Source of the DNA: Candidatus Chromulinivorax destructor
Lineage (GTDB): Bacteria; Babelota; Babeliae; Babelales; Chromulinivoraceae
Assembly: GCF_003366055.1 (NCBI RefSeq)
Contig: NZ_CP025544.1
Span: forward strand, 372,001-436,000
Reading direction: 5' to 3'
DNA length: 64,000 nt
Shown: positions 6,752 to 61,870 of the stretch, in pieces
How positions within the stretch are numbered: position 1 is the stretch's first letter
How the letters are laid out: every line of letters begins with the position of its first letter
Made by a program: the position numbers and the translations under genes
Notes under the pieces: generated by a model
What the model saw: only the letters and a program-made list of their open reading frames with translations
What the model was told of the DNA's origin: nothing
The model's database searches: none

Positions 6752-6935
6752 TATAAACTTCCCTTATTGTTAAATTTCAATTTAAATTAAGATAATTATA
6801 ATAACAATGCATTTAATTTCATAAAGAAATCGACAGTCGTGATAATAATTACTCAAATTTACCAACAGGAGGATTCCTTCTTGCTTAACTTAAAACAATT
6901 TTAAACAAGCAAATATATTACACCTAGTTGCGTTC

Positions 6936-7093
6936 TATGAACCAAATTTAAAAGTAGTATAAAAACCTATAATTTCGCTGTGCTCATCTCAGGATGCAGT
7001 AGTAGCAAGGATCACTACACGCTTTTTTATTTCAAAAAAGAAGAAGACACAGGAATTTTCATAGAAACCGCAGGGCAAAATTACATAATAAAA
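6936..7093 (+). repeat. TIR element family, copy A (3' end lost)
   Basis: Starts with the family terminus ATGAACCAAATTT and continues through the CCTATAATTTCGCTGTGCTC and ACGCTTTTTT segments to TCATAGAAACC and GGGCAAAATT; the right terminus is missing. It occupies most of the 358-base gap 6752-7109 between the ankyrin gene and the delta-subunit gene. No gene is seen in that gap. Confidence 0.75.
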
Positions 7094-22062: not shown

Positions 22063-22135
22063 CAGGCCAGGAGGGATTCGAACCCCCAACACGCAGATTT
22101 GGAGTCTGCTGCTCTACCGTTGGAGCTACTGACCT
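22063..22135 (-). tRNA. tRNA-Trp (anticodon CCA)
   Basis: Cloverleaf on the minus strand: acceptor AGGTCAG/CTGGCCT with one G-U pair, anticodon loop CTCCAAA (CCA), T arm GGGGG TTCGAAT CCCTC, discriminator G as required for TrpRS. It lies directly upstream of secE, the ancestral location. Confidence 0.95.
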
Positions 22136-22190
22136 ACACTCACTTTTTAATCAAATTTAGCGATTAACCCACGGGCCATATTTTAGATGG

Positions 22191-22262
<72 letters not shown>

Positions 22263-22277
22263 ATACCCAAAAAAGCT

Positions 22278-22283
22278 ATTATA
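22278..22283 (-). promoter_or_regulatory. possible -10 box upstream of tRNA-Thr(GGT)
   Basis: A consensus TATAAT on minus lies 16 bases upstream of the tRNA 5' end, a sensible distance. No -35 hexamer with normal spacing is seen; a TTGACA lies only six bases upstream and cannot pair with it. Confidence 0.3.
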
Positions 22284-22376
22284 CGGTTTTGTCAAACATT
22301 TGGTATAATTTTACCTCTTACTATAAGAGTTTAGAGAAAAAACAGAAAAAGACAACTTAGATTTTTAAAAAAATGG

Positions 22377-22449
22377 AGCTGGTGACTGGACTTGAACCGG
22401 CAACCTACTGATTACAAATCAGTTGCTCTACCAATTGAGCTACACCAGC
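22377..22449 (-). tRNA. tRNA-Thr (anticodon TGT), copy 1
   Basis: Cloverleaf with acceptor GCTGGTG/CACCAGC, anticodon loop TTTGTAA (TGT) and discriminator T. The T stem GCCGG/CCAGT has a central C-A mismatch and a terminal G-T pair. It is identical over the whole tRNA to the copy at 22691-22763. Confidence 0.92.
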
Positions 22450-22657
22450 AACACATTATTATTGCAAATCTGAGTCAAATTTTAATTTTTCTTCAAAATC
22501 TTATCGACATCTGACTTACAATATATCTTATTATTAACCAATTCACAAATGCCTTGCCCTTGTCTGAAGCTCCAATATTCGTTTGCATCAACGATGGACA
22601 CGCAGGCGAACAGACTTTGCTGAATAGTAACAATTTTAATTTCAAACATTTTATATA

Positions 22658-22666
22658 AGTATACCA
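22658..22666 (-). promoter_or_regulatory. possible extended -10 between the two tRNA-Thr(TGT) genes
   Basis: TGGTATACT on the minus strand matches an extended -10 element. It could start a transcript towards copy 1 and the secE operon. No -35 is evident. Confidence 0.3.
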
Positions 22667-22690
22667 TAATTTTGCATTACAAAAAAATGG

Positions 22691-22763
22691 AGCTGGTGAC
22701 TGGACTTGAACCGGCAACCTACTGATTACAAATCAGTTGCTCTACCAATTGAGCTACACCAGC
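22691..22763 (-). tRNA. tRNA-Thr (anticodon TGT), copy 2
   Basis: Identical in sequence to copy 1, including the unusual C-A mismatch in the T stem. The identity extends only a few bases into the flanks, so a short segment of about 85 bases was duplicated or homogenised. Confidence 0.92.
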
Positions 22764-22784
22764 AACTTATTTAATTTCAAATGG

Positions 22785-22858
22785 AGCGGGAAACGGGACT
22801 CGAACCCGCAACCTACAGCTTGGAAGGCTGTCGCTCTAGCCAATTGAGCTATTCCCGC
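22785..22858 (-). tRNA. tRNA-Gly (anticodon TCC)
   Basis: Cloverleaf on minus: acceptor GCGGGAA/TTCCCGC, anticodon loop CTTCCAA (TCC), T arm GCGGG TTCGAGT CCCGT, discriminator T. Confidence 0.95.
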
Positions 22859-22978
22859 ATATTTCTAATTTTTATCTATATTATATTTTTTATGATTAAA
22901 TTTCAACATAGTATGATAACTGTGAATTCGGTAGTTAGCTATACTATTATTTTTATTTTGCGAACAGAATAAAAATGG

Positions 22979-23060
22979 TGACGAGGGAAGGATTCGAACC
23001 TTCGAAGGCGGAGCCAACGGATTTACAGTCCGTCCCCTTTGACCGCTCGGGAACCTCGCC
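22979..23060 (-). tRNA. tRNA-Tyr (anticodon GTA)
   Basis: Class II tRNA with a long variable arm: acceptor GGCGAGG/CCTCGTC (one G-T pair), anticodon GTA in CTGTAAA, T arm GAAGG TTCGAAT CCTTC, discriminator A. It is the first gene of the tRNA-secE-nusG-rpl-rpo island on the minus strand. Confidence 0.95.
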
Positions 23061-25789: not shown

Positions 25790-25838
25790 TTACATCTTCA
25801 TGTAAAAAATTATACTTTTTAAAAAAATAACTAGGTTT

Positions 25839-26031
25839 TGTGAACCAAATTTTTACTATAGAATTTTGCCCTACGTTTTTTACAAAAACTCCGGGGATCT
25901 GTAGGCCGGTGGGCCTGATGCACTCTTTTTTGAACTAAAAAAGCGCACAGTGGCACCGGCCACCAATGTTTCCGTAGATGAGCGCAGCGATATCGTAGGC
26001 TTATATCGTTATTTTAAATTTGGTTTACACA
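25839..26031 (-). repeat. TIR element family, copy B (complete, inverted)
   Basis: A 193-bp copy bounded by TGTGAACCAAATTT at the left and AAATTTGGTTTACACA at the right. It lies in reverse orientation relative to copies A, C, D and E. The interior can form a strong hairpin: GGCCGGTGG (from 25911) pairs with CACCGGCC (to 25967) around complementary TTTTTT and AAAAAA tracts. Confidence 0.85.
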
Positions 26032-26051
26032 GCCCAAGAACTTATCTCATC

Positions 26052-37951: not shown

Positions 37952-38304
37952 ACAAAAACCTTTATATCAAATAACCCTCACTTCATGCCAGACGTTGTAA
38001 AAACCTTAAAATTATTACAATATATCTGATATGTTTTGCATATATATTTATATTCTTTTTTGTATAATCTATTCATATTTTTATGTATAAACAATAAAAA
38101 CTGTTTTTTAAAGAGAAAATAGTATTTGTTATCAACAAAAAATAATTGAGATCTGGTATTGCTCAACCGCTTTTTACAAAATTTGAAAAATATAGATGTC
38201 TATAGCTCTCATTACATTTTTATTATTTATAATATCCAACCGCAAAAATGCAAACTATGCTGTTACAAGTCAATAAAAAAATATGCTGATTATTATACTA
38301 TTTT

Positions 38305-38321
38305 AAAATTTGGCTCACACA
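38305..38321 (-). repeat. TIR element family, isolated terminus F
   Basis: AAAATTTGGCTCACACA matches the element terminus with one change. The adjacent sequence does not match the element interior, so it is a remnant or chance. The 381-base gap 37952-38332 otherwise holds nothing recognisable. Confidence 0.45.
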
Positions 38322-38332
38322 GCGTAGATATA

Positions 38333-50212: not shown

Positions 50213-50239
50213 CTTTGATTTTTATAACTTAATTAAGGC

Positions 50240-50429
50240 TGTGTGAACTAATTATAAAAATTAAGATACAAGCCTGCGATATCCTTGAGATCATCTGGAG
50301 AAATATGGTTGGCAAAAGCAATTTTACATTTTGGATGTAAAAAAATTCATCAGGCACACACACCCCGCCAATGCCCAAAGTTTTGATAGAAAACCAAGGG
50401 AAAAAACCTATCGTAAAAAATTGGTTCAA
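50240..50429 (+). repeat. TIR element family, copy D (diverged, near full length)
   Basis: Starts TGTGTGAACTAATT and ends AATTGGTTCAA. Internal matches to the family include AGCCTGCGATAT, TCATCAGGC and GTTTTGATAGAAAACC, with more substitutions than copies B and C. It fills most of the gap between the two convergent secreted-protein genes. A frame within it (50229-50429, minus) is not a gene. Confidence 0.7.
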
Positions 50430-50440
50430 TCAATCAAGAA

Positions 50441-51131: not shown

Positions 51132-51283
51132 AACACCTCCCCCTGGTATAGTATGAATTCTTACGTGAATATCATTTCTGTATAACAATTTACAATAAGG
51201 CGATATTACAAATCAACTGTTTTGCAATTATATTCAAATTGAATCTAATATAATAGTTCATTGATGAATAATGTAGATGAAGC

Positions 51284-51477
51284 TGCGTGAACCAAATTTA
51301 AAATAAGTATGTGCACCTACGATATTGCTTCGCTCATCTCCGGAAATATCGGTGGCAGCGGCCACGTTACGCTTTTTTCATGTAAAGAAATAGTGTATGA
51401 TGCCCACCAGCAAGCAAATTCCCCGAGTTTTCATAGAAAATAGAGAGCAAAACTCTATAGTAATAATTTGAATTACA
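51284..51477 (+). repeat. TIR element family, copy C (complete)
   Basis: Left end TGCGTGAACCAAATTT, right end AATTTGAATTACA (degenerate). The interior includes CCTACGATATTGCTTCGCTC, ATCTCCGGAAATAT and CCCCGAGTTTTCATAGAAAA. It lies in the 529-base gap between divergent genes (51132-51660), upstream of the FolC/ATP synthase promoter. No gene is seen in the gap. Confidence 0.85.
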
Positions 51478-51551
51478 GAGCTCGCAAGCTTCTTTCAATT
51501 TGAAATTATTTAAAATAAAAAACAAGTTAAAGATTTATAATTTGCCATTAT

Positions 51552-51660: not shown

Positions 51661-53070
51661 ATGGTTCAAGTTGATACAAAGATCCAAAATAAAAAAAACC
51701 CAATAATTAACTCCCATCGTACGTACAATGAAATTGTTCAGTATTTGGATGAGAATTGGGGTCAAACAAAAAATTTCATGGCAATCAGCCAACTTGATGA
51801 AATCTTTGGAAACTTGTCTAAAAAATTAAACATCGCTATCGTTTCAGGTACAAGCGGAAAAAGTACAACAATTCACTTTACATGCAAACTATTTAAAGAA
51901 GAAAATTTAAAAGCTGGTGCATTTTACACTCCTCACATAACTTTATACAATGAACGCTTTTCTATAAATGAAAATTATATATCAAATACAAGCTTTACTG
52001 ATATAGCAAATAAAGTTATTCAAACTGCACAAGATAACAAAATAGCTGCAACTTCAAAAGATATATTGACTATGATGGCATTAATTTTCTTTCATGAAAA
52101 TAATGTTGATGTAGCTATTTTTGAAAATAGCTCTATGTATGGTTTAGATCCTGTGATGTATTGCAATCCAAAAATATCTGCTGTAACAAGAATTGTTGCA
52201 AACTCTCAAGATGAAGATACTCATGCTGGCATAACAAATATTATGACCATGATCACTCCAAACTCTCACTTTGTATCTGCAGATCAAAATAAACTTAATT
52301 TGCAAATCATGGCACAACTTGCTGAAAGCAAAGGTAGTATCTGGTCAATGCCTATACGAAAATTAGCTCCATTACAGTACCCATTTGAACAGCTCCATGG
52401 TCGTTGTGCTGCGTTGGCAGAAAGAATTACTCGAATCTACATCGATAATTTTTCAACATCACATGGCAAAGTCCAAGTAGCAGATAGCTTACTGAATAAA
52501 CCAAAAGGTTTAAGAGGCAGACCTACGCTTGAAGCTAAAAAAGTTGCAGAAATGACTCCGCAAAGAACTATTGAACAATTTTGGAGCGAAGTTGTCACAA
52601 CATTACCATCACGTTTCCAACTTATTCAAACTAAAAAATCGAATATTTTGCTCGATAATGCTGACAATTTAGACGCGTTAAGTAATTTATTTCTTGGTGC
52701 AAGACTTCTTTGCTATCAACAAGATTATAAAGAAACATCACTTATTATCGCTTGTCATGAAGGACAATTTGATAATGAAGAATTTATAAAACAAGCTCGT
52801 TATTTCTTTAAAAAATCATCTGGATCTATTGCATTTTGTCCTACAATACCAACAACAGTTGGTGAAAAAACAAAAGCAAGTTGGGATGTTGTAAAAATAA
52901 CAAATGCTGCTAAAACTGCTAAAATAAAAGCGAAAGCTTATGCAAACTTTGCTGATGCTTTCAACGCAATTAAAACAGCTCACAACAATGCTGAGTCTTT
53001 AATTGTTATTACCGGCAGTAAATCTATCATTTCAGAATATGAAAAATATAAAGAAACGATAGCTGAATAA
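51661..53070 (+). CDS. FolC-like Mur-ligase family protein
   Basis: 469 residues. The P-loop is GTSGKSTT (63-70), and YTPHITLYNERFSINENYI matches the SPHL..ER..ING region of folylpolyglutamate synthase/dihydrofolate synthase. The usual FolC loop is GTNGKGS, and the central part contains a basic insertion (KPKGLRGRPTLEAKK), so it is divergent. It may add glutamate to a folate-like substrate, or it may be another Mur-type ligase. It is first in the operon; its stop overlaps the next start (TAATG). Confidence 0.7.
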   Translation: MVQVDTKIQNKKNPIINSHRTYNEIVQYLDENWGQTKNFMAISQLDEIFGNLSKKLNIAIVSGTSGKSTTIHFTCKLFKEENLKAGAFYTPHITLYNERFSINENYISNTSFTDIANKVIQTAQDNKIAATSKDILTMMALIFFHENNVDVAIFENSSMYGLDPVMYCNPKISAVTRIVANSQDEDTHAGITNIMTMITPNSHFVSADQNKLNLQIMAQLAESKGSIWSMPIRKLAPLQYPFEQLHGRCAALAERITRIYIDNFSTSHGKVQVADSLLNKPKGLRGRPTLEAKKVAEMTPQRTIEQFWSEVVTTLPSRFQLIQTKKSNILLDNADNLDALSNLFLGARLLCYQQDYKETSLIIACHEGQFDNEEFIKQARYFFKKSSGSIAFCPTIPTTVGEKTKASWDVVKITNAAKTAKIKAKAYANFADAFNAIKTAHNNAESLIVITGSKSIISEYEKYKETIAE

Positions 53071-53333
53071 TGTTGCAAGCTATTTGCATAACTTTTTTTG
53101 GTGGTTTATTATTTGGACTTTCTCTGTTACATACACAGAAAGTCCTATTTTTATCAAAAAATCCACTCCTTGCAGCAGTCATATCAACGATACGGCTCCT
53201 TGTCATCTCTGTTTTTTTCTATATTATGTTGAAATCAACTCAGATACATCCTATAATTTTAGTAACTTCATTTTTAGTAGCATATTGGCTAATTATTTTA
53301 AAATTCAAAGAGCTCCTGCATGGAAAACAATAA
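53070..53333 (+). CDS. AtpR/AtpI-like small membrane protein
   Basis: 87 residues with three membrane helices. TM2 contains a conserved-type Arg (VISTIRLLVISVFF, Arg42), as in AtpR of N-type ATPases and loosely AtpI. These small proteins help assemble the c ring. The context, directly before atpB and the c-subunit gene and overlapping both neighbours, supports this. The sequence alone would not be decisive. Confidence 0.6.
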   Translation: MLQAICITFFGGLLFGLSLLHTQKVLFLSKNPLLAAVISTIRLLVISVFFYIMLKSTQIHPIILVTSFLVAYWLIILKFKELLHGKQ

Positions 53334-54057
53334 TATCCTGACCGGTCATCAATGGCAGCCACTTGCTCACTATGGGTTTACTCATCCATTTTGGACAATT
53401 CATACCGATACACTTTTGGGGACAATTGTCGCTACCCTGATGATTATCGCAGTATCACTGTATGCGCATCGCATACTGAAAAGAAAACAATCCGTTACTA
53501 AATTTATTATTTTAAAATATGTCGATGGTTTTAAGGATCTTTTGCAACAAACGCTGCATAGTGCTCCTCTTGAACATTTAGCTTTTATTGGATCTCTTTT
53601 TACCTTTATTGTCTTCTGTAACGCTATGGCATTTATTCCCTACATTGAAGAACCAACACGAGATTTAAATACAACACTAGGACTTGGACTCATCTCATTT
53701 TGCTACGTTCAAGGTTATGCTATCTATCATAAAGGTTTTTTTGAATACCTATCAGATTTTACAAAACCATTTTTTTTAATGCTTCCTCTTAATATCATTG
53801 GAACATTAACTTCAATTATATCTCTTTCATTTCGACTTTTTGGAAATATATTTGGTGGCTATGTAATTGCTCACCTATCTTTACAAGCGCTTGAAAGTTC
53901 CTGGATTATGCAAACTATTGGTTTAATGACAGGCTTTAACCTTGCTATTTCTATAATTTTTGGGCTATTTGAAGGAATTATTCAAGCTTTCGTTTTTGCT
54001 ATGCTTACCCTAACTTATCTATCAATGGAAATCGTATCTGACGAGGAGTCTGAATAA
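53320..54057 (+). CDS. atpB: ATP synthase subunit a
   Basis: 245 residues, five to six membrane helices. The essential Arg is Arg172 in SLSFRLFGNIFGG; FGLFEGIIQAFVFAMLTLTYLS is the C-terminal helix with its conserved Glu and Gln. It forms the ion half-channels against the c ring. It overlaps the AtpR-like gene by 14 bases and is followed two bases later by the fused c-subunit gene. Confidence 0.95.
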   Translation: MENNNILTGHQWQPLAHYGFTHPFWTIHTDTLLGTIVATLMIIAVSLYAHRILKRKQSVTKFIILKYVDGFKDLLQQTLHSAPLEHLAFIGSLFTFIVFCNAMAFIPYIEEPTRDLNTTLGLGLISFCYVQGYAIYHKGFFEYLSDFTKPFFLMLPLNIIGTLTSIISLSFRLFGNIFGGYVIAHLSLQALESSWIMQTIGLMTGFNLAISIIFGLFEGIIQAFVFAMLTLTYLSMEIVSDEESE

Positions 54058-54059
54058 TT

Positions 54060-55013
54060 ATGATTGAAATAATGCATATACTTTCGATTTCTATACCGGT
54101 AACCATGTCAGCTTTAGGTGCAGGCATCGGGCAAGGTCTTATCGGATTAAAATCTTTACAAGCTGTTACCATTCAACCAAGCGCATCATCAGAAATTAAT
54201 AAAATATCGACCGTTGGTTTATCACTAACCGAAACTGCTGCTATTTTAGGTCTTGTTATATCAATCGTTTTAAACATTGACACCGCAGTGCCTTTAAACT
54301 ACGAAAGCGCAGCTCTTGGTAGAATTGGCATTGGAATAGCAATCGGCTTATCAGGATTTATTGCAGGTATTGCATCATCTCTACCAGCACAGGCTGCATG
54401 CTTATCAGTTGCACGACAACCATTTTTTGCTAATAAAATATTACAACTCATGCTTCTGACACAAACCGTAATCATGACTCCTAACGTTTTTGGATTCATT
54501 ATTGCTTTGCTTATCAATGCAAAAGTAGCAACCGTAAACAGTTTAAATGAAGGCTTACAACTTCTTGCAGCAGGTTTATCAATTGGTCTTGGAAGCATTG
54601 GACCATGTCTTGGATTAAGTCTTTTTGCCTATTCAGCATGTAAAGCTGTTGGGATTAACAGAAAATCATACACAAAAATATTACCTTTTACGTTTATTGC
54701 AGAAGCAATTATCGAAACTCCCGTGATTTTTTCGCTTTTGGTATCACTTTTAATCTTAAATGTTAAAATTTCACCAACAGCACCAATTATTCAAGGCATT
54801 TGTTTTATTGCTGCAGCTTTTTGTATGGGTATGAGTACCCTTGGAACTGGCATCAGTGCAGGTGCAACAGGTTCTGCTGCATGCGATCAAATTGGTGAAA
54901 ATCCTGAACATTATTCGATTATTTCAAAAGTCGGCTTGTTAGCATTAGCCATGATCGATACTTTTGCAATTTATGGTTTTATCGTCTCAATAATGTTAAT
55001 CTACACAATCTAA
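54060..55013 (+). CDS. atpE: ATP synthase c subunit, four fused hairpins
   Basis: 317 residues, eight membrane helices in four c-type hairpins of about 80 residues. The positions of the ion-binding carboxylate are Glu58 (LTETAAILG), Met139 (IMTPNVFG), Glu219 (IETPVIFS) and Asp300 (MIDTFAIYG), spaced 81, 80 and 81 residues, so hairpin 2 has lost it. Loop motifs such as VARQP (118-121) remain. Hairpin 1 also has GIGQG (Gln25), a feature of Na+-type c subunits; the neighbouring T-A does not fully fit, so H+ or Na+ is open. A ring of such subunits would carry three sites per four hairpins. Confidence 0.9.
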   Translation: MIEIMHILSISIPVTMSALGAGIGQGLIGLKSLQAVTIQPSASSEINKISTVGLSLTETAAILGLVISIVLNIDTAVPLNYESAALGRIGIGIAIGLSGFIAGIASSLPAQAACLSVARQPFFANKILQLMLLTQTVIMTPNVFGFIIALLINAKVATVNSLNEGLQLLAAGLSIGLGSIGPCLGLSLFAYSACKAVGINRKSYTKILPFTFIAEAIIETPVIFSLLVSLLILNVKISPTAPIIQGICFIAAAFCMGMSTLGTGISAGATGSAACDQIGENPEHYSIISKVGLLALAMIDTFAIYGFIVSIMLIYTI

Positions 55014-55026
55014 ACAAGGGCTGATC

Positions 55027-55938
55027 ATGATGCATAACAACCTTTTGCAAGCAATTGGAAACACACCTTTGGTGCAAGTTGACTTACAAACTCCATGCCA
55101 ATTGTACGCAAAATTAGAATATCTTAATCCTGGTGGAAGCGTTAAAGATAGATCATCACTCTTTATGATTGAAGACGCTGAGCAACGTGGCATACTGCAA
55201 CCAGGTGGCACGATTATTGATGCATCATCTGGTAATCAGGGAATCGCAACTGCAATGATAGGCGCGATAAAAGGATACAAAGTAATTATCGCCGTATCTG
55301 AAAAAGTCAGTAAAGAAAAATTAGAAACATTAAAAGCTTATGGTGCACAAGTTGTTATGTGCCCTGCAACAAGTTTTTTGCAAGATCCTAACAGCTACCA
55401 TTCACAAGCAATGCGCATTCATAAAGAAACTCCAAACTCATTTATGCCAGACCAGTATTTTAATTTGGCAAATGCTATGGCACATTACAAATCACTCGGG
55501 CCAGAAATTTGGAGACAAACTGAAGGCAAAATCACCCATTTTATTGCAGCTGCGGGAACAGGTGGAACCATTAGTGGTGCTGGCAGATTCTTAAAAGAAC
55601 AAAATCCAAATATTAAAATTATCGCTGTCGATTCAAACGTTTCGTACCGATCAACAAAAGGTCATCCACAACCGTACGCAATTGAAGGCATGGGTGTTGA
55701 TTTTGACTCTCCTGTTTTAAATTATGATATTGTTGATGAATTTTTTGAAGCACCAGATGCACAATCACTTGCAATGCTGCAACACCTTGCACGAAACAAA
55801 GGCATCTTAGCTGGGCCAAGCAGTGGTGCTGTTGCCTACGCTGCAGAGCAATATTGCAAGCAACTCAAACCAACTGACCTTGCCGTCATGATTATGGGCG
55901 ACTCAGGTCGAGCATATTTAACCAAGAATTTCTACTAA
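55027..55938 (+). CDS. cysteine synthase-like PLP enzyme
   Basis: 303 residues of the O-acetylserine sulfhydrylase/cystathionine beta-synthase fold type II family. The start is GNTPLVQVD; the PLP lysine is in GGSVKDRSS; the substrate loop is SSGNQG (usual TSGNTG); the phosphate loop is GTGGTISGAG; the C-terminal Ser is in PSSGAVAY. CysK, CysM and CBS cannot be separated by eye. It ends the operon after atpE (13 bases). Its last about 35 codons are copied twice downstream (56713 and 57558). Confidence 0.88.
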   Translation: MMHNNLLQAIGNTPLVQVDLQTPCQLYAKLEYLNPGGSVKDRSSLFMIEDAEQRGILQPGGTIIDASSGNQGIATAMIGAIKGYKVIIAVSEKVSKEKLETLKAYGAQVVMCPATSFLQDPNSYHSQAMRIHKETPNSFMPDQYFNLANAMAHYKSLGPEIWRQTEGKITHFIAAAGTGGTISGAGRFLKEQNPNIKIIAVDSNVSYRSTKGHPQPYAIEGMGVDFDSPVLNYDIVDEFFEAPDAQSLAMLQHLARNKGILAGPSSGAVAYAAEQYCKQLKPTDLAVMIMGDSGRAYLTKNFY

Positions 55939-55946
55939 CAATTACA

Positions 55947-55971
55947 GGGGCTTATCACAAGCCCCTTTTTT
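55947..55971 (+). terminator. terminator of the atp/cysK operon
   Basis: GGGGCTT ATCAC AAGCCCC followed by TTTTTT, eight bases after the stop. Copies stand at 56829 and 57663. Confidence 0.92.
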
Positions 55972-56067
55972 ATGCATTCTGCATACCAATCTCCTTTTTC
56001 TGAGGTAACCTTACCTGCTATTTGCAAACCTGCAAAATCTCACAGTGAAAACTTTACTCACAAACTG

Positions 56068-56098
56068 TTGACCTATAAGGGGTGGGGTTTGCTACAAT
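56068..56098 (+). promoter_or_regulatory. promoter of cassette unit 1
   Basis: TTGACC and TACAAT 19 bases apart; TGCTACAAT is an extended -10. The spacer is unusually G-rich (AAGGGGTGGGG). The same layout recurs at 56950 and 57784. Confidence 0.6.
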
Positions 56099-56155
56099 AA
56101 TTTCACAATGAATTATTTATGGTGAATAATATCAAAAACAAAAAAGGAGAACATT

Positions 56156-56581
56156 ATGAAGAAGTTATCTATATTAATAGCTTTTAGTTTTATGGCAATA
56201 GCTGCTGAAAATATATATGCCGGTAAAGGCAAAACTATTCATATCCATAATACTGGTACCCAACGAGTTGAGTTATGGCAACAAAAAAAAGATGGTTACC
56301 CAAAAAAACCCACATATGGAGATACAACATGTTGTAATGGTAAACCTGCTTATGGACTTAATAATTTTGAGTGGGGTAAAGAAACTCTGGTTGGAACAAT
56401 TAATCCAAAAGAAACTACACAATTTACACTAGTAGATGATGTTGATTACGATGGCTTCTGCTCGTGCACCAAAATTCGATATCTCATTAAAAACTTTAAT
56501 AAACAGCCTGTAGATACTCAATACAGACCTGCAAGTGATGAATATTTTGATGGGCATAAAAAAGACACTATGCAATTTTAA
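56156..56581 (+). CDS. small secreted protein of cassette unit 1
   Basis: 141 residues. Sec signal MKKLSILIAFSFMAIAAENIY, then IHIHNTGTQRVELWQQ, a Cys-containing middle and the tail EYFDGHKKDTMQF. AAAAAGGAGAAC precedes the ATG. It is a paralogue of the gene at 57038: the signal and the C-terminal region agree and the middle differs. No known family; a strand-rich, IHNTG-type small domain suggests a binding protein. Confidence 0.75.
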   Translation: MKKLSILIAFSFMAIAAENIYAGKGKTIHIHNTGTQRVELWQQKKDGYPKKPTYGDTTCCNGKPAYGLNNFEWGKETLVGTINPKETTQFTLVDDVDYDGFCSCTKIRYLIKNFNKQPVDTQYRPASDEYFDGHKKDTMQF

Positions 56582-56606
56582 TAATCAAAATATATTTTGA
56601 ATTTTT

Positions 56607-56653
56607 ATGAGTCGATGAGAAAGAATCAATTTTCTCGTCGACTCATATTTTTT
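56607..56653 (+). terminator. terminator after cassette gene 1
   Basis: ATGAGTCGATGAGAAA and TTTCTCGTCGACTCAT form a long stem (one mismatch) followed by TTTTTT. An identical copy follows gene 2. Confidence 0.9.
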
Positions 56654-61752: not shown

Positions 61753-61796
61753 TTCAATCTATTGAACAAATGATTCATAGAGTTAGCAGGCTAAGC

Positions 61797-61870
61797 TGTA
61801 TGAACCAAATTTACATGTGGATACAAACCTACGATGTCGCTTCGCTTACCTCCGGAAATATTTGTGGCGA
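61797..61870 (+). repeat. TIR element family, copy E (left half only)
   Basis: TGTATGAACCAAATTT, then AAACCTACGATGTCGCTTCG, ACCTCCGGAAATATT and TGTGGCGA; then it stops. It lies between the protease gene and the terminator of the secreted gene at 61946. Confidence 0.75.

Follow-up and report, generated by a model that had tools for sequence, protein, structure and literature searches.

The short repeats scattered through the genome of Chromulinavorax destructans are quite probably copies of a non-autonomous, MITE-type transposon whose core and terminal repeats are separable, whose ends have repeatedly been exchanged and whose transposase has changed with them. High copy number, identity of the ends, TA flanks, 8-bp duplications, a core shared by elements with different ends and hairpins that covary between families were all observed. 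C. destructans is a Dependentiae parasite of a protist (PMC6561590). The window analysed is a 64-kb stretch (372001-436000) of its 1,174,272-bp single-contig genome.

Copies in the window and in the genome

Six places in the window had been assigned to one family by the initial annotation and proved to be real, as the similarity among copies A to E is well beyond chance and F represents one terminus. In blastn comparisons within the window, copy B matched C at 76% (E 9e-35), D at 69% (E 1e-14), A at 75% (E 4e-14) and E at 78% (E 7e-11), and F, consisting of a terminus only, was matched by copy A (E 6e-4). The elements had been correctly located and only their boundaries needed correction, the terminal repeat reaching about 5 bp further out on each side. 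Copy B is full length and occupies 25834..26034 on the minus strand, on which the CCTACGATATCGCT half comes first; its right-type end GGTTTTGTGAACCAAATTT begins at 25834 and is preceded by CTA, and its left-type end GGCTGTGTAAACCAAATTT begins at 26034 on the minus strand. Copies C (51281..51482, plus strand) and D (50237..50435, plus strand) are also full length, the former with a decayed right terminal repeat and the latter with a strongly decayed core. Copy A (6931..7093, plus strand) kept the left end, lost the right terminal repeat and carries a deletion around hairpin 2', copy E (61794..61869, plus strand) retains the left half only, and terminus F (38290..38324, minus strand) comprises the left-type end CGCTGTGTGAGCCAAATTT, itself at 38306-38324, with about 15 bp of subterminal sequence.

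Genome-wide, the family amounts to 112 pieces in at least 96 loci, a lower bound obtained by reading only the neighbourhoods of known matches, and the further copies on which the initial annotation had staked its reading are thus present in numbers. Of these pieces, 64 are full length, 54 measuring about 202 bp and 10 about 264 bp; they are non-coding, have paired ends and lie 33 on one strand and 31 on the other. The description of the copies as all intergenic largely stands, with just 2 of 56 inside a mechanical ORF and nearly all others intergenic, and no clear preference was displayed in the orientation of the neighbouring genes. The remark that several copies flank secreted-protein genes carries little weight, because signal sequences are predicted in 44% of the proteins of this organism (PMC6561590). 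The different degrees of decay were borne out by identities of 77–92% to the consensus. Full short copies share a mean pairwise identity of 75% with a maximum of 96%, C-to-T and G-to-A changes are two- to three-fold commoner than the reverse among the Chromulinavorax copies, and the family is old and decaying in this genome. A term search of the main text of the published genome description revealed no mention of the element family (PMC6561590), and the core and end patterns gave no match in viral contigs.

About 15 copies of approximately 264 bp (L045, L036, L040, L054 and others) have an additional 69 bp inserted at the palindrome apex. The median identity of this insert is 94%, against 82–85% for the arms of the same copies, as if it had been acquired or converted more recently than the arms.

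Terminal repeats and insertion sites

The full left terminal repeat is the 19-base GGCTGTGTGAACCAAATTT, and the right end starts with GGTT. With up to 3 mismatches allowed, GGCTGTGTGAACCAAATTT gave 138 matches in the 1.17-Mb genome and the reversed control 0; the 14-base end alone, at 3 mismatches, gave 28 matches where 23 were expected, which is not above chance. Base 3 separates the two ends, GGC being found in 33 of 35 left ends and GGT in 29 of 32 right ends (GGCT on the left and GGTT on the right). TA precedes 72 of 101 ends (background 8.5%) and CTA 48 of 101 (background 1.3%), the Chromulinavorax elements thus being flanked by (Y)TA. One single TA is common to two adjacent elements, and the dinucleotide might belong to a fixed target sequence instead of having been duplicated.

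IS5-family elements with matching ends

The proposal of the initial annotation that a MITE was mobilised by a transposase encoded elsewhere is supported by copies that are dispersed, present in both orientations, intergenic and TA-flanked, with ends common to IS5 elements of relatives. In the Chromulinavorax genome itself, the profiles DDE_3 (PF13358), DDE_Tnp_1 and DDE_Tnp_1_2 gave no match, and the Tc1/IS630 transposase (PF13358) suggested by the TA flanks is absent. The sole IS5 match there (NF033580, G000:C1:282658-283116, L223) is a decayed gene with in-frame stops, whose apparent end GAGTCTGTCTGAAAATTC is unlike the ends of the family. No transposase matching the family ends was found in this genome, and with this lone decayed gene, apparently of a different IS5 type, the family is probably orphaned.

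Several contigs of the congener G001 break inside IS5-family elements. Both ends of one of these are seen, GGCTCTGTGAACCAATTTT, with CTA outside; its final 33 residues fit the end of the NF033580 IS5 transposase model, and this C-terminus also resembles transposases annotated as IS427-family. The DDE_Tnp_1 transposases of G001 and of a second congener, G002, were considered as movers and dismissed for their different ends. G007, a genome from another genus of the same family, contains an intact 858-bp IS5 (261 bits to NF033580) with GGCTCTGTGAACAAAATTT at the gene-start end, GGTTCTGTGAAC at the other end and TA outside both, and this IS5 carries GGCT on the left and GGTT on the right, the same asymmetry as the Chromulinavorax MITE. 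The left ends of the two are similar over 23 bp and the right ends over 16 bp, and comparison of the MITE core with the G007 IS5 gave nothing significant. Since the similarity stops at these points, the core did not arise from this IS5 through an internal deletion.

Other ends around the shared core

Among 101 Dependentiae genomes searched with the core profile, matches were confined to this genus, and a weak match in G020 lies in coding-like sequence and was taken as chance. G001, which is 94% complete, gave six core matches only, so most of the Chromulinavorax sites cannot be orthologous; copies all at orthologous sites in distant relatives had been named in the initial annotation as the sign of a structured RNA or regulatory element. 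The E-values for G001 and for family I of G002 are partly built into the model, and both were first found by plain blastn, while two further G002 families lie outside the core model, which makes the E-values of these families (about 1e-9 to 6e-6) independent.

In G002 (assembly 85% complete), the body of family I is 79% identical to copy B by blastn with the similarity running up to the ends, and the core is about 80% identical over 146 bp to the Chromulinavorax core. Family I is bounded by GTAACTAnTCAGC, unlike the Chromulinavorax ends. Directly outside these terminal repeats lies an 8-bp duplication, with a mean of 6.06 of 8 positions matching against 3.17 in shuffled pairs (sd 0.35) and a peak at a length of 8 bp only. 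GTAA ends and an 8-bp duplication are features of IS66, and family I displays both features of an IS66-type MITE. No transposase for the ends with 8-bp duplications was found with the IS66 transposase profile PF03050, which is absent from the three genomes, including the 85%-complete G002.

Further end types accompany the core in both congeners. One G002 family combines the core with GGGATCACATTTTGA ends and another, family II, with weaker AGACTTATTTCA ends, whose repeat pair is weak (about 9/13). G001 contains one core copy with Chromulinavorax-type ends beside a tRNA-like gene and one with the ends GGTTCTGTTGAGTTTT, which are those of a second co-resident IS5, this re-ended core being a single copy. 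Homology between Chromulinavorax and its congeners does not end with the core but reaches the terminal repeats, and no core-less version of these MITEs was present among the loci fetched. One chimera in G002 (L145) joins halves of two families, and a mixed-subfamily element (L086) is flanked by a perfect 8-bp duplication. A test for left/right subterminal mosaicism left 38 of 64 copies unassigned.

Proposed pathway of end exchange

The terminal repeats in Chromulinavorax are those of an IS5-family, IS427-like insertion sequence, the transposase of which would recognise the element at either end and insert it at (Y)TA. Movement of the family by an IS5 transposase is suggested by its ends, flanks and spread. 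The core of about 130 bp bears no relation to the inner part of the IS5 elements that were found and would have been re-equipped repeatedly within the genus; four of the resulting end types are well supported and a fifth is weaker, and they are accompanied by either TA flanks or 8-bp duplications. The simplest route to new ends would be recombination between homologous cores and subsequent transposition, and each exchange would switch the transposase that moves the core. The chimera L145 and the mixed-subfamily element L086 point to such recombination in the core.

Hairpins of the core and alternative explanations

The core is quasi-palindromic and comprises three small hairpins, defined on alignments and with positions in copy B read from the sequence, namely hairpin 1' at 25875..25889 (GTTTTTGTAAAAAAC), hairpin 2' at 25903..25916 (AGGCCCACCGGCCT) and hairpin 2 at 25950..25963 (GTGGCCGGTGCCAC), all on the minus strand. 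Across families, 93% of the cells in the three hairpins are paired, against 29–49% when the partner was slid. Covariation of the hairpins between families reached 0.431 against 0.134 in shuffled data, a value that stems from a handful of family-level events and a comparison in which replacement of a whole hairpin is indistinguishable from compensatory mutation. The same hairpins in 38 Chromulinavorax copies gave 0.106 against 0.100 when shuffled, with no excess. Single copies have strong predicted folding, and the RNAalifold consensus of the 38 Chromulinavorax copies amounts to only -2.7 kcal/mol. These results fit a division between an active lineage, in which the structure is kept, and dispersed copies, in which it is lost, and the hairpins presumably matter for the element itself. 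The core has short inverted ends of its own (CCTACG/CGTAGG), and in every family of the alignment CGTAGG lies 3' of the hairpins, on their outer side. An extra hairpin module occurs at the same core junction in Chromulinavorax (L055:3900-3950) and in G001 (L091:620-660), suggesting that hairpins are gained and lost as modules.

Compensatory hairpin changes between families and the strong predicted folding of single copies might also be expected of a structured RNA or regulatory element that spread near genes and was kept for the benefit of the host, but covariation within the genome does not exceed that of shuffles, the consensus of the 38 copies folds at just -2.7 kcal/mol, decay is biased to A+T, Rfam returned no family match and adjacent genes have no clear preference of orientation, making this origin highly improbable. 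The conserved hairpins also bear on the idea that the core is the mobile unit itself, moved for example by an HUH-type enzyme acting on a hairpin and inserted into several pre-existing MITE families, in line with its own CCTACG/CGTAGG ends and with a core lacking recognisable ends in G001 (L091). The 8-bp duplication of G002, however, lies directly outside the terminal repeats, therefore the whole unit moved; between-species homology runs past the core to the terminal repeats, and none of the loci fetched held a core-less MITE of these types, so that insertion of the core alone is considered very unlikely. An ordinary MITE, an internally deleted IS5 derivative that was amplified and abandoned and whose likeness to the cores of congeners is incidental, would have the size, the ends, the TA flanks and the intergenic spread seen here. 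Such a history is nevertheless unlikely, since the match to the IS is limited to the terminal 16–23 bp, the core does not derive from it, and a G002 core about 80% identical over 146 bp, up to unrelated ends, cannot be due to chance.

Exchange of ends around a shared core remains the preferred reading. A more far-reaching version, put forward tentatively and with somewhat less than even confidence, regards the core as a selfish DNA passenger whose hairpin module is under selection in the replicating lineage, and which might outlive transposon families by switching ends, the module promoting capture of, or transposition by, any available transposase.

Relation to known elements

Like IS5-family MITEs with IS427-like ends, the Chromulinavorax elements are short, non-coding and multi-copy, have TA beside their ends and bear terminal repeats near-identical to those of an IS5 transposon, left/right asymmetry included. 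Unlike in such MITEs, their interior does not derive from the IS, their core recurs in congeners with unrelated ends, and no matching transposase was found in the same genome. The family works like an IS5-family MITE, yet fails the derivation test for one. Coxiella QMITE2 is described as combining direct repeats and terminal repeats with a core of 113-145 bp for which strong folding is predicted (PMC10969869), and on this description it shares the terminal repeats and a core of this kind with the present elements. The words chimeric, mosaic and modular are absent from that MITE review, and the passages found in it contain no case of one core with different ends. TIMEs, the Tn3-derived inverted-repeat miniature elements, are reported to be likewise non-autonomous and to generate mosaic elements (PMC4133298); in contrast to these Tn3-type mosaics as described there, the present core changes both its type of terminal repeat and its duplication length. 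The GTAG-tagged REP/REPIN palindromes (PMC3733652) resemble the family in their many copies, paired inverted hairpin units and the CGTAGG motifs, but the GTAG tag is located 5' of each hairpin and CGTAGG here on the outer 3' side, and the present elements are bounded by terminal repeats next to which TA or an 8-bp duplication is found. A literature search, outside which most subscription journals lay, found no report on the exchange of MITE ends or on one core with several end types.

A MITE is generally assumed to rely on a single parental transposon and to disappear along with it. The presence of one core with several unrelated types of ends in three close relatives suggests that non-autonomous elements are able to switch from one transposase to another, and the genus offers a compact natural system for studying the exchange of ends and a possible help of internal hairpins in MITE movement.

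Other features were observed beside the element copies. A left half and a right part of the element enclose tandem duplicated ankyrin-repeat genes at L055 (G000:C1:52500-57100), so that copies, by recombining, may contribute to gene duplication. The corresponding 3.7-kb interval (52939-56642) was considered as an autonomous copy and discarded, as it comprises two element pieces flanking the tandem ankyrin genes with no transposase. Contig ends of G001 (L152-L167) carry another contig-breaking hairpin repeat (CCACGGCTTTTAAGCCGTG) that looks like an IS200/IS605-type element. In the window, a cluster of six tRNA genes (22063-23060) is located upstream of the nusG-rplK-rplA-rplJ-rplL-rpoB-rpoC run.
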